Shown piece by piece: positions 35,302-50,679 of a DNA stretch of 64,000 nucleotides (positions are counted from its first letter, which is position 1; each line of letters begins with the position of its first letter). Under the pieces are notes generated by a model. The model was not told the origin of the DNA and did not search any database. It saw only the letters and a program-made list of their open reading frames with translations. Origin of the DNA: Rhodothermales bacterium (lineage in GTDB: Bacteria > Bacteroidota > Rhodothermia > Rhodothermales > VXPQ01); NCBI GenBank assembly GCA_951812345.1, contig OX638295.1, forward strand, positions 2,080,965 through 2,144,964. Direction: 5' to 3'. A program made the translations under genes and the position numbers.

Positions 35302-35937
35302 CTACGTAAGCAGCACCGTCAGGCTGCGGGGGCCATGCGCCCCGATTACCAGGGCTTGCTCGATGTCGGCGGTCTTGGACGGACCAGCCACGAACAGCCC
35401 GTAGCCTTCTCTGGCCACATCGAGGCGGTCGTACGCTGCGTGCATGTCCGGCACAATGGCGGTCCTGTCCAGCACAAGCATCAGGTGCTGCGTCAGAAAC
35501 GGGGCAGCCCGCGACCCCATCGCGGATTCGCCCAGCCATACGGCCCCGTTCTCCGCCACGCCGAATGCACCGGGACACACCAGCACGTCAAGCTGCGCCA
35601 TGGTATGCACATCGGTGCCGGGATTCACCTGTTCGAAGGACCATGCCGGAACCGTCGCCGCGATGGAAACAGCCTCCGGAAACCGCTCCCGCACCGCCGC
35701 TTCCACGCCGCCCGTCTCCACGATTTGTACGGTCGCGGCAGCGGCCTCCGCCGAGGCCATGAACCGGGAGATCAAATCGCCGGGTTCGAGATCCCGGACG
35801 CCGGTGATGGAAGGAAGGGGCGAGGCAGGCACTCCGGCGCGGCGCACCGCTTCAAGGATGGCTTTGCGGGCAGGATATCCTTCCTGCGTACCGCTCCCTG
35901 CGCTGCGCGGGGCGTTATGTCGGGGCTTTCGGTTCAT
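35302..35937 (-). CDS. lutC: Lactate utilization protein C (LUD domain)
   Basis: 211 residues. The C-terminal half carries the LUD signature: FGVAENGAVWLGES, RTAIVPDMHAAYDRL and VAGPSKTADIEQALVIGAHGPRSLTVLL. LutABC together oxidise L-lactate to pyruvate. The gene lies 69 bases downstream of lutB on the same strand. The N-terminal 40 residues are variable and basic, so the start is uncertain. Confidence 0.9.
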   Translation of the reverse strand: MNRKPRHNAPRSAGSGTQEGYPARKAILEAVRRAGVPASPLPSITGVRDLEPGDLISRFMASAEAAAATVQIVETGGVEAAVRERFPEAVSIAATVPAWSFEQVNPGTDVHTMAQLDVLVCPGAFGVAENGAVWLGESAMGSRAAPFLTQHLMLVLDRTAIVPDMHAAYDRLDVAREGYGLFVAGPSKTADIEQALVIGAHGPRSLTVLLT

Positions 35938-36006: not shown

Positions 36007-37404
36007 TCATTTCTTCCCCCGCTCGGCGGCATACCATTCCCCAAACGACCGGGCGGGAGGTTCCGGAATATCCCGCGCCCGTCCCCAGACGTTCCAGCGC
36101 CCGTAGAGCAGGCGGCGCGGCGCATACCGCAGCAGGCTCCGGGCCAACCGACCCGCCAGCCGGTACCGGGCCGGACGCCGGGTAATCCATCCGGCCATGT
36201 TCATCCCCAGGCGCTTGCCCCGGGAAATATGTCCCTCGCGCGCGGCCTCCTGACGCCACCGGTAGAGCTGGGCATGGATATCGATCTTGACCGGGCATAC
36301 GTCGCTGCACGAGCCGCACAGGGACGAGGCGAACGGCAGCGTAGCGTATTTCTCCATATCCCTGCCGGGCGCCAGAATCGCCCCGATCGGACCGGATGGC
36401 GTGGCCCCGTAGCTATGCCCCCCGCTGCGCCGGTACACCGGGCAGGTGTTCAGACACGCCCCGCACCGTATGCACTTGAGCGAAGCGCGAAAATCCTCCC
36501 GCGCCAGATGGCGCGTGCGCCCGTTATCCACGAGCACGATGTGGAGTTCGCGGCCCGGCGCCGGACGGTGAAAATGCGACGTGTAGATGGACAGGGGCTG
36601 GCCTGTCGCGCTGCGGGACAACAGACGCAGGAAAACGCCGAGATGCTCCGGTTTCGGAATGAGTTTCTCGATGCCCATGCAGGCAATGTGCACCGGCGCC
36701 AGATGCGCCCCGAGGTTCGCATTGCCCTCGTTGGTCACCACCACCAGCCCGCCGGTGGAAGCCACGGCGAAATTAACGCCCGTGATCGCGGCGTCGGCGG
36801 CCAGAAAACGAGCGCGCAGATCCTGGCGCATGGCTCCGGCCAGAAACTGCGGATCGGACGATCCGGCAGGCGTGCCCAGTTCCTCGTGAAACAGTACGGA
36901 AATCTCTTCCCTCCGGACATGTATCGCCGGCGCCACAAGATGGCTGGGAGGCTCTCCCCTGAGCTGCACGATACGTTCTCCCAGATCCGTATCCACGACT
37001 TCGAGGCCGCGCGCTTCGAGATACGGGTTCAGACCGCATTCCTCCGTCAGCATGGACTTGCTCTTGACCACGCGGCGGACATCCCGCGCTTCCAGCAAAT
37101 CGTACACGATACGGTTGTGCGCCTCCGCGTCCGAAGCCCAGTGAACCTGCACCCCGTTCGCTGCGGCGCACTTCTCAAACTCGATCAGGTATTCGTCCAG
37201 CTTCGACAGCGTGTGCTCCTTGATCTGCGAGGCAAGATCGCGCAGCCGCTCCCACCCTTGCACGCCTTCGGAAACCGCATCGCGCTTTTCACGGATGCGC
37301 CAGAGCACGGAATCGTGCCAGGTTGTCTGATCTGCATTCGCAACGAAGCGGGCCGCCCGGCCGGCATGATCGACGGGGCCCGCGTTCTGTGCAGCGTCAT
37401 GCAT
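36007..37404 (-). CDS. lutB: Lactate utilization iron-sulfur protein B
   Basis: 465 residues. An N-terminal LUD-like domain (AGVNFAVASTGGLVVVTNEGNANLG) is followed by two [4Fe-4S] motifs, CIRCGACLNTCPVYRRSGG and CGSCSDVCPVKIDIH, and the typical tail. It passes electrons in lactate oxidation with LutA and LutC. Its start overlaps the end of lutA by 8 bases, showing tight coupling. The length is normal for the family. Confidence 0.93.
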   Translation of the reverse strand: MHDAAQNAGPVDHAGRAARFVANADQTTWHDSVLWRIREKRDAVSEGVQGWERLRDLASQIKEHTLSKLDEYLIEFEKCAAANGVQVHWASDAEAHNRIVYDLLEARDVRRVVKSKSMLTEECGLNPYLEARGLEVVDTDLGERIVQLRGEPPSHLVAPAIHVRREEISVLFHEELGTPAGSSDPQFLAGAMRQDLRARFLAADAAITGVNFAVASTGGLVVVTNEGNANLGAHLAPVHIACMGIEKLIPKPEHLGVFLRLLSRSATGQPLSIYTSHFHRPAPGRELHIVLVDNGRTRHLAREDFRASLKCIRCGACLNTCPVYRRSGGHSYGATPSGPIGAILAPGRDMEKYATLPFASSLCGSCSDVCPVKIDIHAQLYRWRQEAAREGHISRGKRLGMNMAGWITRRPARYRLAGRLARSLLRYAPRRLLYGRWNVWGRARDIPEPPARSFGEWYAAERGKK

Positions 37405-38125
37405 GGCTCATCTCCGCGCTTCCGTTCAGAATCTCGGCCACATGCAACACCCGCAGCGGCATGTCCCGGCGACGGATAAGCCCGTCGAGATGCATCAGGC
37501 AGGACATATCGGCGCCTGTAATAACCTCCACGCCATGCTGCAAATGGTCGTCGAGACGATCCGCGCCCATCCGGACCGAAACCGCCTCCTCCTGCACCGC
37601 GAATATCCCTCCGAACCCGCAACATTCGTCCGGGCGGCGTAAGCCCACCAGTTCCAGCCCGTCTACCATGCCCAGAAGATGCGCCACATGATCGAACGGC
37701 GGCTCGCGACGCTCCGAGGAACTTGCCAGACGCAACCCCCGGAGTCCATGGCAGGATGCATGCAGCCCCACCCGGCCGGAAAAAGACGCATGCAGGCGGT
37801 CCACCTGCAACACTTCCACAAGAAACTGGCACAGTTCGTAATAACGGACGGTTGCCGCCTGTTCGACATGCTCCCTCAGATGCAGCACGCAACTTCCCGA
37901 AGGCCCCACCACGTAATCGAATTCCCGGAAACAGGCCGCCGTGTGCCGGTGCGTCGCCTCGGCGTCCTCCGCGCACCCGGCGTTCGCCATCGGCTGGCCG
38001 CAGCATGTCTGCTCGCGGGGGTACGCCACGTCACAGCCCAGACGCTCCAGCAGTTCGAGCGTCGCCACCGCCACCTGCGGATAGAACTGGTCGATATAAC
38101 AGGGCACGAACAGGCCGATCTTCAT
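37397..38125 (-). CDS. lutA: Lactate utilization protein A (CCG-domain protein)
   Basis: 242 residues from the ATG at 38125 (MKIGLFVPCYIDQFYPQVAVATLELLERLG). Two cysteine-rich CCG domains hold iron-sulfur clusters: CCGQPMANAGC near residue 45 and DECCGFGGIFAVQEEAVS near residue 175. The start ATG overlaps the TGA of rhaEW (ATGA), so lactate made by RhaEW and the lactate oxidase are translated as one unit. A longer frame to 38320 is not used because it reads through the end of rhaEW. Confidence 0.92.
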   Translation of the reverse strand: MKIGLFVPCYIDQFYPQVAVATLELLERLGCDVAYPREQTCCGQPMANAGCAEDAEATHRHTAACFREFDYVVGPSGSCVLHLREHVEQAATVRYYELCQFLVEVLQVDRLHASFSGRVGLHASCHGLRGLRLASSSERREPPFDHVAHLLGMVDGLELVGLRRPDECCGFGGIFAVQEEAVSVRMGADRLDDHLQHGVEVITGADMSCLMHLDGLIRRRDMPLRVLHVAEILNGSAEMSHA

Positions 38126-40284
38126 CGCAGGAACGCCTCCGGCAACCCGCCGTCCACTTGAAGGATCTGCCCGGTGGTTTTGCTCAGACGGCGGCTCGCG
38201 AGCAGGAAAACGGCCTCGGCCTGATCCTCGACACGAATAGCCTGACGGGTAAGCGTACGTTTGGCGTAGAAATCGGCCAGCCGGCGGCGCAGCGTTTCCG
38301 TATCCTCCTGCTCCTCGCAAGGCAACCCGTACCGGGCCAGCGAGGCGATGACGCGATCCCGCGGAAACATGGCGCTCCCATCGAGCACCGTTGCAGGCGC
38401 CACGGCGTTGACGCGAATCTTCGGCGCCAGCCGCATGGCCAGTTCGCGCACGAGATGGTTTGCAGCGGCCTTACTCGTGTCGTATGCAAGGCTTCCCGGC
38501 TTGACGACCACGGCATTGGCGCTCGTCGTCAGCACGAGGCTCCCCGGCAGGTCCTGCGCCGACCATATCCGGGCCGCCTCGTCCGCCACGATCCAGCAGC
38601 CGATCACGTTCACGTCGAACGCGCGGGTCCAGGCCTCATCAGGAATATCGCCCCCGCTATCCGGGGTCGGATACAGTCCGGCCGTGACCACTACATGGTC
38701 TATCCCCCCGCAGGCCAGCACCACTTGATTCAACGCGCTGCACACCGACGCCCGGTCCGTGATATCGGCGCCAAGGGCAAGCACATGGTCCGCGTCCGTG
38801 CAACGCATCATGTCATCCGCCGTAACGCGGGCCGAGCTTGCGTGCAGATCGACCACCGCCACCACCGCGCCCGCATCCGCCAGACGCTGCGCCACCGCAG
38901 CCCCGATCCCGCTGCCTCCCCCCACGACCACCGCCACCTCGCGCGCCAACTCCTTCTCCGGAGGCATGCGCTGCAACTTCGCCTCCTCCAGCGCCCAATA
39001 TTCGATATCGAAGGCTTCCTGCCGGGGCAGCGCCGTATACCCGCCGATCGCTTCCGCGCCGCGCATGACATGTATGGCGGCAGCATAAAACTCCGCGGCA
39101 AGGCCGCTTTCGCGCCTGTTCTTCCCCCACCCGATCATGCCCAGGCCCGGCAGAAGCAACACCGACGGCAGGGCGCTGCGCATTTCCGGAGAATCCGGAT
39201 GGCGGCACGCCTCGTAATAGGCCGCGTAGTCGTCCGCGTAGCCGGCCAACGCCTCGTCGATATGGTCCCGAAACGTGCCGGGGCCCCTGTCCAGGGGATG
39301 CCGGTCCACGTACAACGGTTTGATTTTCGTGCGCAGAAAATGATCGGGGCACGAGGTGCCGAGTTCGGCAAGCCGGGGCGCCTCGCGGGAGTTCACGAAT
39401 TCGAGCACCTCCTTCGACGTATCGACCGTGGCGATCACCTTCCGGTCGCGGCCCAGCCGCCCGCGCAGCCAGGGCAACAGATCGGCCAGTACGGCGCGGC
39501 GCTCCACCTCGGAAAGCGACTCGTACCTTGCGCCTCCGAATGGGGTATTCCCGGCCGTATGCTCGGCTACGAACTGCTCCGCCCGGTCCATCAGGCGAAG
39601 CGTGAGCAGGTAGCATTCCCGGTCGTCGTCGGCCCAATTGATGAGGCCATGGCCGCCCAGCATCACGCCCTTCGCCTCCGGGTATTCCTTACAAACGCGC
39701 TGCATGTCGAGCCCCAGCTCGAATCCGGGGCGCTTCCAGTCCACCCACACCACCTCGTCGCCGTACGCCTCGCGGGTCAACTCGGCGCCGTTGTCCGCCG
39801 TGGCGATCGCGATAGCGGCCACCGGGTGCATGTGATCCACATGCCGGTACGGGACGAATCCGTGCAGGGGCGTGTCGATGCTGGGCGCGCGCCGGTTCAG
39901 ATTGAATACGGCATGCGCATACATTGCAGGCATGGCGTCCTCCGCCTGCGTCTTCAGGCCCCGGTCGGGGAATCGCGCATAGGCCTCCTGCAGGGCAAGC
40001 AGTTTCTGCTGGTACAGGGAAGAAAAGTTTTCCCTGCCGGCAGTCCCCAGATCGCCGCCGGACCCCTTGACCCAGAGCACTTCCACCTCTTCGCCCGTAA
40101 CCGGATCCCGCTCCATGATCTTCGACGACGTGTTGCCGCCTCCGGTGTTCGTGAAGCGCAGGTCGCTGCCCAGCAGGTTTGAGCGATACACGAGGCGGCC
40201 CAGCCCGTCCAGCCGGTCGGCCACGGCCTCGTCCCACTGGTCCTCTACATGCAGAAAATTCAGGGATTGGGAGGGGTTATACAT
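38122..40284 (-). CDS. rhaEW: Bifunctional rhamnulose-1-phosphate aldolase/lactaldehyde dehydrogenase
   Basis: 720 residues. The N-terminal half is a class II aldolase (residues about 1-430: NTGGGNTSSKIMERDPVTGEEVEVLWVKGSGGDLGT, HVDHMHPVAAIAIA, GHGLINWADDDRECYLLTL). The C-terminal half is a short-chain dehydrogenase with VVGGGSGIGAAVAQRLADAGA and the catalytic YDTSK motif. Proteins of this architecture cleave rhamnulose-1-phosphate to DHAP and L-lactaldehyde and oxidise the aldehyde to lactate. Context agrees: rhaB and rhaI lie upstream and lutABC is coupled downstream. Two small plus-strand genes separate it from rhaB, so it needs its own promoter at 40285-40645. Confidence 0.93.
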   Translation of the reverse strand: MYNPSQSLNFLHVEDQWDEAVADRLDGLGRLVYRSNLLGSDLRFTNTGGGNTSSKIMERDPVTGEEVEVLWVKGSGGDLGTAGRENFSSLYQQKLLALQEAYARFPDRGLKTQAEDAMPAMYAHAVFNLNRRAPSIDTPLHGFVPYRHVDHMHPVAAIAIATADNGAELTREAYGDEVVWVDWKRPGFELGLDMQRVCKEYPEAKGVMLGGHGLINWADDDRECYLLTLRLMDRAEQFVAEHTAGNTPFGGARYESLSEVERRAVLADLLPWLRGRLGRDRKVIATVDTSKEVLEFVNSREAPRLAELGTSCPDHFLRTKIKPLYVDRHPLDRGPGTFRDHIDEALAGYADDYAAYYEACRHPDSPEMRSALPSVLLLPGLGMIGWGKNRRESGLAAEFYAAAIHVMRGAEAIGGYTALPRQEAFDIEYWALEEAKLQRMPPEKELAREVAVVVGGGSGIGAAVAQRLADAGAVVAVVDLHASSARVTADDMMRCTDADHVLALGADITDRASVCSALNQVVLACGGIDHVVVTAGLYPTPDSGGDIPDEAWTRAFDVNVIGCWIVADEAARIWSAQDLPGSLVLTTSANAVVVKPGSLAYDTSKAAANHLVRELAMRLAPKIRVNAVAPATVLDGSAMFPRDRVIASLARYGLPCEEQEDTETLRRRLADFYAKRTLTRQAIRVEDQAEAVFLLASRRLSKTTGQILQVDGGLPEAFLR

Positions 40285-41285: not shown

Positions 41286-41350
41286 TATAGGATACTCTGA
41301 TTAAGTCCGCAAAGCGCTGAGCAAAGCGGTTTTGGTCAGAGTATCCTATA
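41286..41350. repeat. Perfect 15-bp inverted repeat built from two dispersed-repeat cores
   Basis: TATAGGATACTCTGA at 41286-41300 pairs exactly with TCAGAGTATCCTATA at 41336-41350 across a 35-base loop. Both arms carry the core of the island repeat, and the left part extends the match into the loop as CTTTGCGGACTTAATCAGAGTATCC on the minus strand. It lies between two convergent stops (41204 and 41360), so it could end transcription in both directions. Confidence 0.7.
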
Positions 41351-41359
41351 AAACCTGCC

Positions 41360-42760
41360 CTACACAACCTGACTGCCGGGCACATACGTACGCACATTGC
41401 AGGACCGGGCGGACGCCTCGCGCAGGGAAACCCCATGCGGCAAAGCGCCCAGCGTTCTGAGCTGGATCAGCACATTCCCAAGCGCCGTCGCTTCGACGGG
41501 GCCGGCTACCACGGGCCGGTTGCACACCTGCGCCGTCAATGCGCACAGCAGGCTGTTCTGCGACCCCCCGCCCATGAGGTGCAGCACATCAATGCCTTGT
41601 CCCGTTACCCGTTCCAGATCGGCGAGCGCCCGGCGGTAGCTGTCCGCAATACTCTCCACGATCAGGCGGCACAACGCGCCGCGCGAGGCCGGAAGCAGCG
41701 ATCCGTTTTCACGCAGCGCATCCAGCAGACGTTCTTCCATGCCGTCCCGGTGCAGAAAGCGCGGATCCTCCAGATCCACCACAACCCCCATAGAGGGCGC
41801 CGTGCGGGCCTCCTCTTCCAGCGCATCCCACGCCACGCCCCCCCACTCGCGCGCGCATTCCTGCAGCACCCACAACCCGGTCAGGTTCTTCAGCAAACGG
41901 ATGGAACCGTCCAGCCCCGCCTCGTTCGTGAACCCGGCGGCGAGCGCCTCGGGCGTCACCACGGGCGTCGCGCGCTCCACGCCAAAAAGCGACCAGGTCC
42001 CGCAACTGATATAGGCCCATGACACCCCCGGATCGACCGCCGGGGCAGCCGCTACGGCCAGCGCCGTGTCGTGACTGCACGTGGCTATGACAGCGATAGC
42101 CGGATGGCCATGCAAAGGCCCCATAATCGTACCCGACGGAACGATTTCAGGCCACGGGCCGGGATCCAAGCCGAGCGTCCGCATGAGCGGGGCCGCCCAC
42201 TGCCTCGTATGTACATCCATCATCTGCGTGGTGCTTGCCAGCGACACTTCGACAGCCCGCCTGCCCCCAAGCCGGTGGTTGAAATAATCGGCCATGGTGA
42301 GGCAGTGCGCCGCCTGCAAACCTTCTTCGCGGTCGGCCACCAACTGGTACAGCGTGTTGATAGGCAAAAAATAAATGCCGGTGCATTCGTAGATATCCTC
42401 CGGCGGAACCGTTTCGCACACCGTCTCCATCACTCCGTCGAGGCGGTGATCCCGATAGCAATACGGCAAACAAACCGGAGACCCGTCTGCATCGAGCGAC
42501 ACATAATCGACGCCCCACGAGTCGACGGAAACCGATCGGAGTCCGGGCGCTTCGGCAAGCGCCGCTTGCAATCCGATCCCGATCTCCTTCTCGATAGCGT
42601 GGATGTCCCACCGGATATGCCCATCTCCCTCCACGATGGGCGTCTCGAAACGGTGCACTTCCTGCATCTCCATGCGTTCCCCGTCAAACCGGCCCAGCAC
42701 GGCGCGCCCGCTCGCAGCGCCAAGGTCCACGGCAAGCATATGTTGTGTCCGTTTCTCCAT
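41360..42760 (-). CDS. rhaB: Rhamnulokinase (FGGY family)
   Basis: 466-residue sugar kinase phosphorylating L-rhamnulose at C1. The N-terminal phosphate-binding motif is MLAVDLGAASGRAVL, followed by VSVDSWGVDYVSLDADG and the rhamnulokinase-like YIFLPINTLYQL-type region (TGIYFLPINTLYQLVADRE). The catalytic side has CSHDTALAVAAAP and the ATPase domain shows HLMGGGSQNSLLCALTAQVCNRPVVAGPVEATALGN. It is 27 bases downstream of rhaI on the minus strand. Length and motifs are normal. Confidence 0.93.
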   Translation of the reverse strand: MEKRTQHMLAVDLGAASGRAVLGRFDGERMEMQEVHRFETPIVEGDGHIRWDIHAIEKEIGIGLQAALAEAPGLRSVSVDSWGVDYVSLDADGSPVCLPYCYRDHRLDGVMETVCETVPPEDIYECTGIYFLPINTLYQLVADREEGLQAAHCLTMADYFNHRLGGRRAVEVSLASTTQMMDVHTRQWAAPLMRTLGLDPGPWPEIVPSGTIMGPLHGHPAIAVIATCSHDTALAVAAAPAVDPGVSWAYISCGTWSLFGVERATPVVTPEALAAGFTNEAGLDGSIRLLKNLTGLWVLQECAREWGGVAWDALEEEARTAPSMGVVVDLEDPRFLHRDGMEERLLDALRENGSLLPASRGALCRLIVESIADSYRRALADLERVTGQGIDVLHLMGGGSQNSLLCALTAQVCNRPVVAGPVEATALGNVLIQLRTLGALPHGVSLREASARSCNVRTYVPGSQVV

Positions 42761-42787: not shown

Positions 42788-44071
42788 TCAGAGGCTTTGC
42801 GGCGGAACGTACGCAGCGCCGGTGCGCGCCTCGGAAACCTGCTCCCGGTACCGCGAGGCCCGGAACGCGGCCACAGGGTCGATGGCGCCCCCAAGGCGTT
42901 TGCGGGCCGCCGCCGCCAGCGCGCCCACATCCGTCTCGTAGGCTTCCCGGAGCGTCTCCTCGGCCATCAGCACATCGTTCGTTTCCTGGTAATGCGCCAG
43001 CGCATCGCGCCGCACGATAAGCGCGCGGGCCCAGGATTTCTGCAGCCGGTCCACCGTTTGCAGCAGCGCCTCGATCGGGTCCTTCACGTTATGACTCTGG
43101 TCGATCATGTACGAAGGACTCGCGGGCAGCGCGCCGTCCGCAAGCGCATCCGCCAATTCATTGAATATAAGAAACAACTGGTAGGGCTTTATGGAGCCGG
43201 CCGTGAGGTCGTCGTCCCCGTATTTCGCATCGTTGAAATGAAAACCGCCCAGCCTGCCCGCCGTGATGAGGCGCGCCACCACCTGCTCGACATTCACATT
43301 CGGGAGATGGTGCCCCAGATCGACCAGGCACGACGCCCGCTCCCCGGTTTCGCGCGCCAGCATGAGCGACGACCCCCAGTCGGACACCACCGTGGCGTAG
43401 AAGGCCGGCTCGAACGGCTTGTGTTCGATGAACAGGTTCCAGTCCGAAGGCATCGCCTCGTACACGTCCGCCAGGCAGTCCCGCACCCGCTCGTAGGCTT
43501 TGCGCAGGTGCGTCTGCCCGGGATAATTGGCCCCGTCGCCGAGCCAGATCGTCAGCGCTTTCGAACCCAGCGCGGCGCCCACGTCGATCGCATGCAGATT
43601 GTGCGCCACCGCCTGTTTGCGCACCGAGGGGTCCGTGTGCTGGAACGATCCGAACTTGTAACTGGACGTTTGCCCGGCCTGATCCTGAAAGGTGTTCGAG
43701 TTTACCGCATCGAATGCCACCCCAAGCGCCGCGGCCTGTTCGCGCAGATCGCGCGGATCGTCGGGTTCGTCCCAGGGAATGTGGAGCGATATCCGCGACG
43801 CCGAGCCGGTGAGCCGGCGCACCACGGACACGTCCTGCATTTTCTCGAATATGTCGCGCGGCTCGCCCCGGCCCGGAAAACGCCCGAACCGCGTGCCGCC
43901 GGTCCCCAGCGCCCACGAAGGCGCCGCCACCTCAAAAGCAGCCACCTGCTCTACGACCGCATCCGGGTCCAGGCCGCGGCGGCGTAACTGCTCGTCGAGA
44001 TGCGCATAGTCGCTGCGCCAGGCTTCGTCGAAGGCCCGGTTCGAAGCGTCGATCGTATCCGGCGTGATCAT
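42788..44071 (-). CDS. rhaI: L-rhamnose isomerase, TIM-barrel RhaI type
   Basis: 427-residue xylose-isomerase-like barrel converting L-rhamnose to L-rhamnulose; the RhaI form, not the RhaA form. Metal-binding regions appear as FIEHKPFEPAFY, ASCLVDLGHHLPNVN and GGFHFNDAKYGDDDLTAGS. NSNTFQDQAGQTSSYKFGSFQHTDPSVRKQAVAHN is typical of this enzyme. It is the third gene of the permease - small membrane protein - rhaI - rhaB run. Nothing unusual in the sequence. Confidence 0.93.
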   Translation of the reverse strand: MITPDTIDASNRAFDEAWRSDYAHLDEQLRRRGLDPDAVVEQVAAFEVAAPSWALGTGGTRFGRFPGRGEPRDIFEKMQDVSVVRRLTGSASRISLHIPWDEPDDPRDLREQAAALGVAFDAVNSNTFQDQAGQTSSYKFGSFQHTDPSVRKQAVAHNLHAIDVGAALGSKALTIWLGDGANYPGQTHLRKAYERVRDCLADVYEAMPSDWNLFIEHKPFEPAFYATVVSDWGSSLMLARETGERASCLVDLGHHLPNVNVEQVVARLITAGRLGGFHFNDAKYGDDDLTAGSIKPYQLFLIFNELADALADGALPASPSYMIDQSHNVKDPIEALLQTVDRLQKSWARALIVRRDALAHYQETNDVLMAEETLREAYETDVGALAAAARKRLGGAIDPVAAFRASRYREQVSEARTGAAYVPPQSL

Positions 44072-44139: not shown

Positions 44140-44316
44140 TCAGGAAGAATCGGCGCGGCCCATCCAGAACGAAGCGGTCGTAAACCAGAGTACGGCGCCC
44201 ACAAGCATAAGCGCCGCATGCGTGCGCCAGGACAGTACGCCCACAAGCACCAGCACCGCCGGAACGACTGTCAGAGCAAGGCCGCTGTACGAAAGGGTTT
44301 TCAAAAGGGCGGTCAT
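44140..44316 (-). CDS. Small two-helix membrane protein next to the permease
   Basis: 58 residues from the ATG at 44316 (MTALLKTLSYSGLALTVVPAVLVLVGV). Two predicted membrane helices are joined by a short loop, ending FWMGRADSS. It lies between the NCS1-type permease (96 bases upstream) and rhaI (68 bases downstream), all on the same strand. Similar tiny proteins can accompany transporters; a subunit or stabiliser of the permease is my inference. Confidence 0.65.
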   Translation of the reverse strand: MTALLKTLSYSGLALTVVPAVLVLVGVLSWRTHAALMLVGAVLWFTTASFWMGRADSS

Positions 44317-44412
44317 CGGCGTATGGTCTCGTATCAAGGCTGCGGACGGCGTACAGCGAAACAACGAATACAGGTGGCGAGGCGGTTATGTCTGCGCGTT
44401 ATGGTCGTGCGG

Positions 44413-45828
44413 TTACGTATGCGCGGCAGGGGACACCCCACCCGATCGTTGCCGGATCGCACTAAGCCCTATAAACAGACCCGTTGCAATGAACCAGCCG
44501 GGCAGACCCAGAAAAAATATATCCCATCCCCAGATCACATGCATAAACCGGCAGGCGCCCAGCGTCCCTATCCACGCCAACGCAGCGGGCCAGTCGAAAG
44601 CGATCCGTTTCCAGCCGGCGTACCCGGAGCGCAGCCCCATCTTCGGCAGGATCCAGAAATCGGCGAAAATCACCGCCCCCATCGGCATCAGAATGAGCCC
44701 GTAGAGCGCCACAAAGTCAAGCAGGCGCATCATCAGCGCGGGAAACAGCGCCGCCACCGTCGTAACCCCTCCCACCGCAAGCGTCACCTTCCAGCGCTTC
44801 CAGTTCGGGGTGATGGTCTGCATGGCCAGCCCGGCGCGGTAAATCGTCGGGTTTGCCGTCGTCCACCCGGCCACCACCACGGCGATCAACCCGGCGACGC
44901 CCGCTCCGAGCCACGCGATCGGGCCGGGCGCCACTTCGCCCCCCTGCTGAATAGCCAGCGCCACCAGCACGCCCGAGGCCACCCAGGCCAGGTAATGCCC
45001 GAGATACATCCCAAAGGCGCTGGCGAAACCATACTGCCATTTTTTGGCGTACCGCAAAATGGTCAGATCCGCCATGCCTATGTGCATGGCCATGTTCGCA
45101 AACCAGGCGAAAAACGTGACATGCCAGAAGGTGAACCGGACGCGGCCTTCCACAGGCACGCCCGTCCATATTTTTTCGTTCGCCACGGTCCGCAGATCCT
45201 CGAAGGACCGCACGCCCAATTCCGGCAACACGGCAAGCCCCGAAGCCAGAAACACGAGCAGCAGCCAGGGCGAAGCGATCTTCGAAAACCGTGCGATTTT
45301 GTCGAACCCGAGTACGGCGAGCACGGTCACCACTCCTCCGACCGCCAGCACCGTCACCACCCATGCCGCGCTGTTGGGATACAGGTCGCTCAGACCCGGC
45401 ATGGGCATATCGAACGGAATGCCCACCGCCGTGGCGGCCACGGAAATCATCGCCCCCGCCAGAAAACAGAACATCAGGGCGTTGACGATATTGTATACGA
45501 ACAGCAGGTTGGGGCCGGTGATCTTCCGCAGATGCCAGTACAGATTCAGCCGGGTCCTCGTAGCGATGGGCGCGCACAGAAAGGCCCACGACAACACGGC
45601 CAGCAAATTTCCCACCAGCAGACCCAGCAGCAAATCGCCCGTGGCTACGCCATGCGCCACGAAAAGCGGCCCGATCACGAACTCGGTGCCCGCCACGTGC
45701 TCGCCCGCGTACAACCCGATAAACCCGCCCGGGCCTCTCAATCGGTCTTCGGAGACCGGCTCCCGGTCGAACTCGTTGATCGCATCGAGGCGCTCGGCAA
45801 GGGTGCTTTTTTGGGAAGAATCCGTCAT
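44413..45828 (-). CDS. NCS1/cytosine-permease-type transporter, candidate rhamnose uptake
   Basis: 471 residues with about 12 membrane helices. The NCS1-like N-terminal signature appears as LYAGEHVAGTEFVIGPLFVAHGVATGDLLLGLLVGN, with later YNIVNALMFCFLAGAMIS and VVAGWTTANPTIYRAG. NCS1 proteins usually move nucleobases, hydantoins or vitamins. This one is first in an operon with rhaI and rhaB and no other rhamnose carrier is visible, so L-rhamnose is the probable cargo, by inference. I start at 45828 (MTDSSQKS); an ATG at 45843 lies inside repeat copy B. Confidence 0.85.
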   Translation of the reverse strand: MTDSSQKSTLAERLDAINEFDREPVSEDRLRGPGGFIGLYAGEHVAGTEFVIGPLFVAHGVATGDLLLGLLVGNLLAVLSWAFLCAPIATRTRLNLYWHLRKITGPNLLFVYNIVNALMFCFLAGAMISVAATAVGIPFDMPMPGLSDLYPNSAAWVVTVLAVGGVVTVLAVLGFDKIARFSKIASPWLLLVFLASGLAVLPELGVRSFEDLRTVANEKIWTGVPVEGRVRFTFWHVTFFAWFANMAMHIGMADLTILRYAKKWQYGFASAFGMYLGHYLAWVASGVLVALAIQQGGEVAPGPIAWLGAGVAGLIAVVVAGWTTANPTIYRAGLAMQTITPNWKRWKVTLAVGGVTTVAALFPALMMRLLDFVALYGLILMPMGAVIFADFWILPKMGLRSGYAGWKRIAFDWPAALAWIGTLGACRFMHVIWGWDIFFLGLPGWFIATGLFIGLSAIRQRSGGVSPAAHT

Positions 45829-45973: not shown

Positions 45974-46285
45974 ATCCTTATTTATCCCACCAGACACGGA
46001 CAGTTCCCTTCCGGGGCGTTCACGGGTGCGCTCAAGGCGCACGGGGTGCGTATATCCATGGACGGCAAGGGCCGCTGGCTGGACAACGCGTACGTGGAGC
46101 GCCTCTGGCGCAGCCTTAAACAGGAAGAAGTCTACCGGCGCGCGTACGACACGGTGGCCGAGGCCAGAAAAGCAATCGCCGACTACCTGCGCTACTTCAA
46201 CGAAGAGCGCCCGCACCAGGGACTTGACAACCGAACGCCCGACGACGTATTCTATGAACGAAAACCGCTGCCTATAGCGGCATAA
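45974..46285 (+). pseudogene. IS3-family transposase C-terminal remnant
   Basis: The frame reads AFTGALKAHGVRISMDGKGRWLDNAYVERLWRSLKQEEVYRRAYDTVAEARKA... ending RPHQGLDNRTPDDVFYERKPLPIAA. This is the last third of an IS3-family integrase-type transposase, including the region with the final catalytic Glu (VERLWRSLK context). The usual DQGSQFTS segment is degraded to RHGQFPSG and no N-terminal part or ORFA exists. It is a dead fragment. The sequence around 46321-46342 (CTGTCCAGTTTTTACAGACC) could be the element's right end. Confidence 0.8.
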
Positions 46286-46563: not shown

Positions 46564-49500
46564 ATGGGTCATTTCATGATTTACCCGGAAACGTATCGCG
46601 AAAGAGGCATCCTCAGCCGTTTTCATCATTCTTCTCACTCGCTCATCGCCCGCCTTGCGGGAGGCGTCCTTACGGTGCTGCTTCTGCTTGCCGGCGGCGT
46701 GGTTACGCATGACGCGCAGGGACAGAACCAGGGGGTGCCTGCTGAGCCCCTTGGAGACAATTTCGTCTTCTTTGTGGACAGCATAAACCCCGACCTTCTC
46801 AGGGTCGAAGGCATCACGGTGGTCAACGATCCGGAAGGCGGCGACAACAGGGTGGCGAGGCTTGCAAATGGGAATTTTTCATATCAGAGATTTTTCTTCG
46901 CAGAAGGACATGATCAGGGCGTTCCCCGCGACATGACGGCCAACCGGGACGCCGGGAATGTCCTTCATTTTCGTATGCTGGTGGATTCGGGCAACCCGAA
47001 CCACGGCTCAAGCGGCGACATAGAAGTCAGGTACCGCCTCTCGGTCCAGTTCGAGGATTACGGACCGGATGACAACGCCGGAGCCGATGTAATTTACAAT
47101 TATCCCTTCCGCCTGCGCTGGTCCATACCGGACAGCATGCGCAACGGGGAATGGCACACGGTATCGCTACAGCTCCCGCCCGCAACCTGGGCCGACCTCG
47201 AAACCGCGAAGACCGCCAACACCATCACGCCCCTGGAAAAAAGGTGGATATACGGCGGCTCGTGGGCAGGATTTCATATCGGGACCGACCTGCAGGGGCC
47301 CAATACCACGCGGGAACCCACTCTGTGGAAAGAATTCGAATGGGACAATGTGGAGTCTGTGGGCATTCAGTGGGACTGGGGCGATGCTGGAGCCACAGGC
47401 GCCCCGATCTACCTGGACGACGTGTATATCGGCCCGGCCGACCTGGACCTTACGGGCCTCCTTACGCCTGAGGAGGCGGCTCCGGCCGTGTCCGGCGTGA
47501 ACTTCAGCGTCGACGGCAACCGGCATGTCATTTCCTGGACCCACAATGCCGCTGCAACCGATATCGCGCAATACAAGGTATACTCCAGCCACAACCCGAT
47601 TACGGATGTAACGGCGCAGGGTGTAGCACTGATCTCGACGATAACAGGGGACCTCACCGCAAATGGCGGAGTGCACACGGTGCGGGCGCAGGGCGACCTG
47701 CCCCATGCCTCTGTCGGCAACGCCATCTACTATGCGGTAACGACCGCGGACGCCTCAGGACTGGAGAAAAAGGACATATCGAACAGTTCCGCTATGCTCG
47801 CTGCTACTTCGTATTCGCCGGTGGTGGTGCAATTGACCGAGGGCCAGGCCGCGACCATCAAGGCCAACATCGCGGCAGAGAACGTAGTGGGCTCAGGCTT
47901 TCCTTCCGGGACCGTGCCGTTCACGGTCAACCAGGCGCATTCGGTACGCACCCTGGGGGGCGACTCTCCCGCCGACAGCGACATCTCCGGATCTTTCCTG
48001 GTGGGGTACTCGGACGCCAATGAAATCTTTATCTATGCCGAGGTCACCGACGATCAGGTGGAAATCTCCCCGGCCGACAGGAATCAGGGGGACACCTGGC
48101 AGGACGACACCATAGAACTCAACTGGGGCAACTACGATGTGCGGGAGGCCGGGGGGTCGATCATGGTCAGTAGTCCGCACAACGACGGCAATAAAGATAG
48201 CGACGACAGGAAACGCGGCGATTACCCCGATTACCAGGTGCGCATATCCGCACACGGCACCGCGGCGTCGGCAGTCGTCAGAAGTATCTCCGACCTGCCC
48301 GGCGGCAGTGGGGCCAAACTGAATTCAGGAAGCGGGGTATACGCGCCCATGGACGGCGGTTACAAGATACTGATAGTTTTGCCTGTGGCCGAGTTCAAAG
48401 ACCCGATCGACCGGGAGAATGCCTTTCCCGGCGCCAACGAGATCCGCTATTCCCCCATGACGCTCACCATAAACGACCGGGACGGGGGCAATCGCGGTCA
48501 CCAAATCACCTGGAGCCTCCGTGCCCTGGAGGCAGGGGACAGCGCCTGGAAAAACCCGGGCGAGTGGCAAACCGTAGCGATGGTCGGGCGCAACTACGTA
48601 GCGGATGCGCCCCAAGCGGAGCCGGAAGGCATACCCCCGGCGCAAACGAAGATTCTTCGCGTGGACGGCGGACCGCTCACGGTGGACCTCGATGCGGCCT
48701 TTGCGAAAAACGATGCGGACTGGACCGTGCATCACTATGTGGTAGACGGCGGAGCCACGGTGAATACCCCCGACTCCTTGTTTGTGGTACCATCGCTGGG
48801 CTGGGTACAACTCGAGGCGGGTATGCTGACCATTAACCCGACAGGACCCGGCGCCTTCAAGATCGCCGTGCAACCCGGGACCGATGCCCCTCTGCCCCTC
48901 AAAGTGGAAATCATGTCGGACGATGCGCCCATGGTGCAGGGTGTATCTTCCGGGGCGCACTACAACGCGCAATCGAACGGCTACGTAGAGACCCTGAATC
49001 TGGCGCTGGGCAGAGAAACGTCGAAAAAACTGGAACTGTTCGGCAAATTCCACGACCCCAACGACATTACCCTGTCGTATAATCACAGCGACGAGCATGT
49101 CGACCTCCGGCCTGTAGTCACCAATCCGGATGTGGTGACCGCGACGTTGTCCGGTTCCATACTTACCATCGCCCTTACGGATCAGGCAAGAGGCGGCGAT
49201 GCGTCGGATATATGGATTTATGCAGTGGATAGCGACAACGAATACGCCCGATTGCGCATTGGCGTAAACGTATCCAGTGCAACCGGACCCTATGTGGCCA
49301 ACGCGCTCGATGACGTACTCATACGTGAGGACGCCACAACCGACGCGAAAGTGTACCTGTTTGGCGCCTTTGGGGACGGCGATGGCGAGGCCCTGACATA
49401 CGAGGTCATCGTGCACGACGACTCGAAGGTGGAAATAGGCGAAAATCCCAAAGTAATTATTACGTCGTACATGCGAACGGATATCGACCTGAGGAACGTC

Positions 49501-50679
49501 GGGCCCAATTCCACAGGCGAAATCACGATCCGTCCGCTCAAAACAGGGAGCGTTACCTTTACGGTGAAAGCCTCGGCCGGGGGTGAATCCGTGGAGGATG
49601 TCTTCAGATTGACGATCGTATCCAGGAATGCGCCGAAGATCAAGACGCAGATTCCTGACCAGGTAATAGACGCCGATGGCGGCCCTGTCAGAATAGACCT
49701 GACGGATGTGGATCCCACAACGGAGGGCGAGCAGCCCGCGTTCGAAGATCCCGACGGGGGCGCATTGACGTATGCGGCGACCTCGAAGAACGCCAGCGTT
49801 GTACGAGCCGGTGCGAGGGGTTTCGTATTAACGCTTACGCCGATTTGGGGCTCCGGCGGGCACACGTACGTTACGGTATCGGCCACGGACGCCAAAGGCG
49901 AAACCTTCCCGCAGACCTTCAAAGTGACCGTCAAGGAGGCCACAAAGCCGATCATCAATCCGGGCGCGAAGTCCATCCTTGCCGCCGGCATCGTGCTGAG
50001 TACGAGCGAAGAGGCGAAGATCTGGAATCTGATGAATCTCGGGGACGCGGATAAGAAAGAGGATTATGTGCCTCTATTTATCGATCCGAATGCCAGATCA
50101 AGCGATCAGCTTCCGGGTGGGTTGTTTTTGGAAATGCCGCTAGATAGGGTGGAAGCCGATCATCGCTACGATAATCTGAGCACGGATAACGACGTGTACA
50201 CGTCTGCCATGCGTATCACGTTGGATCCGTCCAAGGCTACGCTGACGGTCATTCCTATCGCTGCTAACTCGGCGAAAGTGACGATAATAGCAACAGACCG
50301 TGAACTTACCGGGATTCCGGCTACGGTGATGATCACGGTGGTGTCTTGTGATGGCGTGGATATGAGTGCTCCATGCGAGGGCGTTATAACTGGCATCGAA
50401 GGCGAGGAACTGCCGAAGGAAGTTGAGCTTTCGCAGAACTATCCGAACCCGTTCAATCCTCAAACGACCATCGACTACGCTTTGCCGCAGGCGAGCGACG
50501 TGAGCCTGATCGTGTACGACATGCTCGGTCGTGAAGTGGATGTGTTGCTTGACGGTCCGCAGGCCGCAGGTCGGCACACCGTGCGCTTCGGTGCGAACCA
50601 CTTGCCGAACGGCGCCTACGTGTACCGCCTCGTGGCGGCAGACAAGGCCATTACGCGGATAATGGTCCTTCTCAAATAA
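46564..50679 (+). CDS. Giant secreted multidomain protein with CBM9-like and Ig/cadherin-like domains, T9SS-sorted
   Basis: 1371 residues; signal region with hydrophobic LIARLAGGVLTVLLLLAGGVV. Residues about 60-310 are a beta-sandwich (possible carbohydrate-binding domain). Residues about 315-410 resemble fibronectin type III, and 425-660 a family 9 carbohydrate-binding-like domain (IFIYAEVTDDQVEISPADRNQGDTWQDDTIELNW). Several Ig/cadherin-like repeats follow. The end is the T9SS sorting domain (SQNYPNPFNPQTTIDYALP). About the last 690 residues are homologous to the protein at 52145-54544. It should be exported and anchored at or released from the surface, where it would bind glycans. No catalytic motif seen. 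Confidence 0.85.
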   Translation: MGHFMIYPETYRERGILSRFHHSSHSLIARLAGGVLTVLLLLAGGVVTHDAQGQNQGVPAEPLGDNFVFFVDSINPDLLRVEGITVVNDPEGGDNRVARLANGNFSYQRFFFAEGHDQGVPRDMTANRDAGNVLHFRMLVDSGNPNHGSSGDIEVRYRLSVQFEDYGPDDNAGADVIYNYPFRLRWSIPDSMRNGEWHTVSLQLPPATWADLETAKTANTITPLEKRWIYGGSWAGFHIGTDLQGPNTTREPTLWKEFEWDNVESVGIQWDWGDAGATGAPIYLDDVYIGPADLDLTGLLTPEEAAPAVSGVNFSVDGNRHVISWTHNAAATDIAQYKVYSSHNPITDVTAQGVALISTITGDLTANGGVHTVRAQGDLPHASVGNAIYYAVTTADASGLEKKDISNSSAMLAATSYSPVVVQLTEGQAATIKANIAAENVVGSGFPSGTVPFTVNQAHSVRTLGGDSPADSDISGSFLVGYSDANEIFIYAEVTDDQVEISPADRNQGDTWQDDTIELNWGNYDVREAGGSIMVSSPHNDGNKDSDDRKRGDYPDYQVRISAHGTAASAVVRSISDLPGGSGAKLNSGSGVYAPMDGGYKILIVLPVAEFKDPIDRENAFPGANEIRYSPMTLTINDRDGGNRGHQITWSLRALEAGDSAWKNPGEWQTVAMVGRNYVADAPQAEPEGIPPAQTKILRVDGGPLTVDLDAAFAKNDADWTVHHYVVDGGATVNTPDSLFVVPSLGWVQLEAGMLTINPTGPGAFKIAVQPGTDAPLPLKVEIMSDDAPMVQGVSSGAHYNAQSNGYVETLNLALGRETSKKLELFGKFHDPNDITLSYNHSDEHVDLRPVVTNPDVVTATLSGSILTIALTDQARGGDASDIWIYAVDSDNEYARLRIGVNVSSATGPYVANALDDVLIREDATTDAKVYLFGAFGDGDGEALTYEVIVHDDSKVEIGENPKVIITSYMRTDIDLRNVGPNSTGEITIRPLKTGSVTFTVKASAGGESVEDVFRLTIVSRNAPKIKTQIPDQVIDADGGPVRIDLTDVDPTTEGEQPAFEDPDGGALTYAATSKNASVVRAGARGFVLTLTPIWGSGGHTYVTVSATDAKGETFPQTFKVTVKEATKPIINPGAKSILAAGIVLSTSEEAKIWNLMNLGDADKKEDYVPLFIDPNARSSDQLPGGLFLEMPLDRVEADHRYDNLSTDNDVYTSAMRITLDPSKATLTVIPIAANSAKVTIIATDRELTGIPATVMITVVSCDGVDMSAPCEGVITGIEGEELPKEVELSQNYPNPFNPQTTIDYALPQASDVSLIVYDMLGREVDVLLDGPQAAGRHTVRFGANHLPNGAYVYRLVAADKAITRIMVLLK

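Follow-up and report, generated by a model that had tools for sequence, protein, structure and literature searches.

The accessible part of PMC3870299 describes L-rhamnose transporters of at least three families, namely RhaT (DMT), the ABC systems RhaFGHJ/RhaSTPQ, and the MFS sugar porter RhaY, and names no NCS1-type L-rhamnose carrier. We analyzed a window of 64,000 nucleotides from the genome of a Rhodothermales bacterium, in which a permease gene and a gene for a 58-residue membrane protein lie in a rha operon. Like RhaT, RhaFGHJ/RhaSTPQ, and RhaY, this permease is encoded in rha operons and has L-rhamnose as its proposed cargo, but it comes from an unrelated protein family.

The closest structural counterparts of the permease are CodB (7qoa) and Mhp1 (2jln, 4d1a), in both of which TM1 gives no specific substrate contacts (PMC9379551). 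The permease resembles them in its predicted 12-TM LeuT-type fold, and its threonine pair on TM8 would be compatible with an Na2 site. By contrast, it is ~15-18% identical to them in structural alignments, has no PF02133 match, carries invariant charged residues at the TM1 break, is encoded beside genes for sugar or polyol catabolism, and has either a proposed small subunit or a fused two-helix extension.

Small membrane partners of LeuT-fold carriers include MetS with MetP, YhdT with PanF, and DUF4212 or DUF485 proteins with SSS symporters, and the titles of PDB matches pair MAP17 with SGLT1/2. The locus described here shares with these pairs the combination of a tiny membrane protein and a LeuT-fold carrier. 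To our knowledge, none of MetS, YhdT, DUF4212, DUF485, and MAP17 accompanies an NCS1-type or a rhamnose carrier. A search of the main texts of the open literature gave no account of the permease family as a rhamnose carrier.

RESULTS

Organization of the rha operon

The rha operon runs on the minus strand from position 45828 to ~35302, with the permease gene first (Table 1). The small gene follows after 96 bp, rhaI after a further 68 bp, rhaB after 27 bp, and rhaEW after 1.07 kb; the L-lactate oxidation genes lutA, lutB, and lutC come after rhaEW. The rha genes make up the isomerase/kinase/RhaEW pathway, as set out in the accessible part of PMC3870299. As originally predicted, the permease gene is the sole transporter gene within the operon. 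No Rfam match was found within the operon.

Table 1. Genes of the rha operon, in window coordinates
Feature	Position	Strand	Evidence
NCS1-fold permease, 471 aa, 12 predicted TM helices	44413..45828	-	Translation, model, homologues
58-aa membrane protein gene	44140..44316	-	ORF, aligned homologues, fused homologue
rhaI, L-rhamnose isomerase	42788..44071	-	TIGR02629 E 1.3e-174
rhaB, rhamnulokinase	41360..42760	-	TIGR02627 E 4.8e-123
rhaEW, rhamnulose-1-phosphate aldolase / lactaldehyde dehydrogenase fusion	38122..40284	-	NF006189 above cutoff, 1019.7 bits
lutA-like (cysteine-rich domain), L-lactate oxidation	37397..38125, start approximate	-	tblastn 57% to related-loci LutA
lutB-like iron-sulfur protein, L-lactate oxidation	36007..37404	-	TIGR00273 E 4.2e-121; PF02589
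lutC-like LUD-domain protein	35302..35937	-	tblastn 41% to related-loci LutC

The motif TCAGAGTATCC occurs five times in the window (30170, 33890, 41290-41346, and 45875) against 0.6 occurrences expected. One of these copies lies between rhaB and rhaEW, and another is located upstream of the permease gene. In other loci of the same genus, the motif forms inverted pairs ~243 bp apart (L016 5815-6068, L215 1079-1332, and L218 295-547). This paired spacing speaks for a small mobile element, with the motif probably as its terminal repeat, rather than for a shared operator. On the plus strand just upstream of the operon (45992-46285), the translation was recognized by eye as that of a truncated IS3-type transposase, of which the C-terminal part is left (MDGKGRWLDNAYVERLWRSLKQEEVYRR). 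Positions 46564-50679 of the plus strand encode a protein of 1371 aa and are divergent from the operon; a type IX secretion sorting domain was recognized in this protein, together with a weak CBM9-like match.

Predicted fold and sequence family of the permease

The permease protein gave no Pfam match even at E 10, the models for PF06379 (RhaT), MFS, and ABC transporters included, and no Pfam transporter family was found for its relatives. PF02133 (Transp_cyt_pur) matched none of 14 or 33 permease relatives at up to E 10 and nothing in the whole genome of the window. The single NCBIfam match was partial, to CytX (TIGR02358, E 5.6e-12), and its score of 45.5 bits is far below the cutoff of 309.85. 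A PDB sequence search with the protein or with profiles returned nothing relevant.

An AlphaFold2 model of the permease built from 58 sequences had a pLDDT of 88 and a pTM of 0.87. Its top Foldseek matches were CodB and Mhp1, with VIA Z scores of 37.5 and 31.4, respectively, compared with 26.3 for the next other entry. Because these two proteins are the best structural matches, the predicted fold is NCS1-type (LeuT-type), although none of the described family models covers the sequence. The original label of an NCS1-type permease is supported by the predicted structure and not by the sequence models, with PF02133 absent and CytX below its cutoff; we retain it on the strength of the structural match rather than of Pfam.

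T323 and T324 on TM8 were invariant across all clades. The Na2 ligands of CodB include Thr278 and Thr279, which lie on the corresponding helix (PMC9379551). T323 and T324 may be their equivalents and would then be compatible with an Na2 site. E43, H44, T48, and E49 at the TM1 break and N245, H249, and D254 at the TM6 break were also invariant, and these polar residues are candidates that probably line a sugar site.

Conservation of the small gene beside the permease

The small open reading frame comprises 58 codons from an ATG within a longer open frame, and an alignment of 13 homologues, 55-65 aa in length, supports this start. By analogy with a fused homologue, the protein is predicted to have two TM helices. 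When 13 family members were scanned at up to E 10, none had a significant Pfam or NCBIfam match, and the MetS, YhdT, DUF4212, and DUF485 models were not among the matches listed.

In a profile search, the small gene lay downstream of the permease on the same strand in 92 of 95 permease loci; the remaining three are truncated by the end of the contig. Every clade I locus uncut by a contig end carries it. In Balneolaceae, rhaEW intervenes between the permease and the small gene, and the small gene is still kept. Among 296 Bacteroidota genomes, it was present in 22, all permease positive, and in 0 of the 267 permease-negative genomes. The tiny membrane-protein gene that the original prediction placed after the permease is confirmed, and the pairing is more than chance, since the small gene accompanies the permease gene in different phyla.

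Distribution and association with rhamnose genes

Relatives of the permease at 58-90% identity occur in many phyla. A scan of GTDB contigs yielded at least 428 relatives, and the best 80 of these came from Rhodothermales, Balneolales, Cytophagales, Saprospirales-type lineages, KSB1, Calditrichota, Latescibacterota, Gemmatimonadota, Aminicenantes/Acidobacteriota, and Ignavibacteria, plus single metagenome-assembled genomes labeled otherwise, whose labels may be wrong. The distribution was patchy in Bacteroidota (29/296 genomes), and the permease was present in 58 of 390 genomes of the order containing genome G128. Viral contigs scanned with a clade II protein contained no relative.

Core rhamnose genes (RhaI, RhaB, RhaEW, GH78, GH106, or RhaM) were present in the fetched stretch of 59 of the best 80 loci, and in 33 of the 38 with a stretch of at least 15 kb; many of the 21 loci with no such gene in the fetched stretch are short contigs. 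As an estimate, a background rate of a few per cent would be expected, given one or a few rha clusters per genome. The neighbors counted in the best 80 loci were RhaI (40), RhaB (34), RhaEW (31), GH106 (16), GH78 (13), and rhamnose mutarotase (9), so that alpha-L-rhamnosidases recur near the permease, and LutA, LutB, and LutC were found 18, 17, and 10 times, respectively.

Within Rhodothermales, 15 of 60 genomes carry the permease, counting the window's own genome and one truncated copy, and the whole copies are 75-96% identical. All 15 are among the 20 RhaI-positive genomes, and none is among the 40 RhaI-negative ones (Fisher p 3e-10, kinship ignored). The co-occurrence also holds where the two genes are not adjacent (G011 and G012). 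Five RhaI-positive genomes lack the permease; beside rhaI in genomes of this kind, no substitute transporter was seen in the fetched stretches, some of which end at contig edges and are blurred by antisense ORFs. The neighborhood survey envisaged in the original prediction thus ties this permease clade to rha genes across phyla and nests it in RhaI-positive genomes, with the small protein as a near-constant partner that is fused to the permease in sister clades, as described below.

Sister clades and a fused form

Clade II consists of flavobacterial proteins of ~470 aa that are 52-55% identical to the permease and are encoded in RhaEW-RhaI-RhaB-permease operons. They have neither a separate small gene nearby nor a C-terminal extension, indicating that the small part is not universally needed. 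Clade III proteins (~571 aa, 40% identity) are candidate mannitol/polyol importers: in the loci whose neighbors were checked (L150, L182, and L184), the adjacent genes encode a sugar kinase and a member of the mannitol dehydrogenase family. This clade includes L150-L152, L182, L184, and L186-L191, and two plasmid records annotate its members as hypothetical. Clade G proteins (~570 aa) are encoded on gammaproteobacterial plasmids and publicly annotated as "nucleoside transporter." Their genes lie beside RhaI and RhaEW on Catenovulum and Pseudoalteromonas plasmids and beside sulfatase and uronate genes on the ulvan plasmid pAlt76. The plasmid genes L179-L181 (Alteromonas, Catenovulum, and Pseudoalteromonas) probably encode rhamnose importers. 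The RhaI and RhaEW neighbors of clade G and the mannitol dehydrogenase and sugar kinase of clade III tie the wider family to sugars and polyols, not nucleobases.

Clades III and G share a C-terminal extension of ~100 aa, which the small-protein profile matched over 55 of 55 columns with an hhalign probability of 83-86%. Controls gave at most 7% outside the extension in clades III and G and at most 1.2% for clade I windows, with windows covering part of the extension reaching up to 44%. Taken separately, clade III gave 74%, and the match of clade G was weak (26%). The model of the fused protein showed two confident helices in the extension, at 504-530 and 534-564. Because the match covers the full length of the small protein, the profile comparison indicates that the extension is a natural fusion of the small gene to the permease.

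In the tree, clades III and G grouped together (100/100). Clade II formed one clade with a long stem, nested with modest support among clade I sequences. Persicobacter, whose small gene is a separate one, branched at the base of clades I and II; the root was set at the midpoint, and long branches leave the deep joins uncertain. The simplest history would be one ancestral two-helix module, separate or fused, with a single loss in clade II. A possible specificity marker is P327 on TM8, which precedes T328: all three rhamnose-linked clades (I, II, and G) retain it, and the mannitol-linked clade III has a change there.

Other carriers in the genome and loci

The window's genome has an RhaT-family gene (PF06379) elsewhere, at G000:C1:389644-390630 (L112 9633-10646), beside a ribokinase and SusC. 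The same gene is kept in the congener G003, which is RhaI negative. These neighbors and its presence in an RhaI-negative congener suggest that it is probably a ribose-type carrier, and it was set aside as a true rhamnose carrier; the NCBIfam name RhaT is probably wrong for it. A conventional rhamnose transporter elsewhere under the same regulation would have counted against the original prediction; a gene of the RhaT family does exist, but it is probably a ribose-type carrier. The genome also encodes three MFS sugar porters, nine SSF matches, and five sugar-binding-protein matches, none of them in the rha operon, and another rhamnose route is possible. In three loci (L039, L042, and L079), an RhaT-family gene lies directly downstream of the permease and the small gene, so that two candidate rhamnose carriers are encoded next to each other.

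DISCUSSION

A protein with the predicted shape of a nucleobase importer, paired with a tiny membrane protein and encoded in rhamnose clusters of many phyla, is most likely a sugar importer of an undescribed kind with a small partner subunit. The comparative tests support the original prediction of a rhamnose importer, with the cargo and the subunit role as inferences. We propose, at a probability of roughly 0.7, a two-component importer of L-rhamnose that consists of the permease and, as a dedicated subunit, the 58-aa protein; uptake would probably be coupled to Na+. Imported L-rhamnose would pass to RhaI, RhaB, and RhaEW, and the resulting L-lactate would be oxidized by LutABC. T323 and T324 would form the Na2 site, and the invariant residues at the TM1 and TM6 breaks would line the sugar site. 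The small protein would contact the permease in the membrane and most likely serve its stability, assembly, or gating, and clades III and G would carry this subunit as their C-terminal two-helix extension. The wider family may well be a carbohydrate-specific branch of the NCS1 fold, in which clades I, II, and G would carry L-rhamnose and clade III would carry mannitol or a different polyol. Its members would combine a 12-TM carrier with a two-helix module that is a separate subunit, a C-terminal fusion, or secondarily lost.

The permease might instead import L-rhamnose alone, with the small protein co-inherited for another role such as regulation, quality control, or as an enzyme partner. A small membrane protein encoded next to a transporter can have a regulatory function, and the clade II permeases manage without one in rha operons. 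However, the small gene is strictly nested in permease-carrying genomes, is kept even where rhaEW intervenes, and is fused in two sister clades, so we consider this reading unlikely. Slightly less probable still is that the carrier takes another compound of the pathway, such as a rhamnose-containing disaccharide or glycoside, one rhamnose anomer, or a product such as L-lactate. The recurrence of alpha-L-rhamnosidases and of LutABC would fit such a cargo, as would the adjoining RhaT-family gene of three loci, which would be redundant if both carried free rhamnose. Against it, the window's operon encodes no transporter besides the permease, and the free-polyol pathway encoded beside clade III suggests a monosaccharide-sized cargo.

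An ordinary nucleobase or thiamine-precursor permease that lies in the rha operon by chance would agree with the sub-cutoff CytX match, the only one in NCBIfam, and with the public annotation of clade G. The rha association recurs across many phyla and separate clades, however, and PF02133 is not matched, which makes this explanation very improbable.

An Echinicola vietnamensis protein, Echvi_1617, is reportedly listed as an L-rhamnose transporter in Fitness Browser/GapMind; it may be an orthologue of the permease with mutant-fitness data. If so, rhamnose use would already have genetic support, and even then, as far as our literature search found, the micro-subunit, the gene fusion, and the NCS1 fold of the carrier would be undescribed. 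Rhamnose is absent from the main text of PMC9007349.

Relatives of the permease are publicly annotated as "nucleoside transporter" or hypothetical, so that many of these genomes would seem to lack the inner-membrane step of rhamnose use. If the proposed importer, permease plus small subunit, is correct, it would add a further transporter family to L-rhamnose uptake and suggest that the NCS1 fold has been recruited for sugars. The separate, fused, and lost states of the two-helix module offer a natural series for the role of a micro-subunit in a LeuT-fold carrier. The importer would also fill a gap in the degradation of rhamnose, and probably of ulvan and pectin, in Bacteroidota, Rhodothermales, Gemmatimonadota, KSB1, and others.
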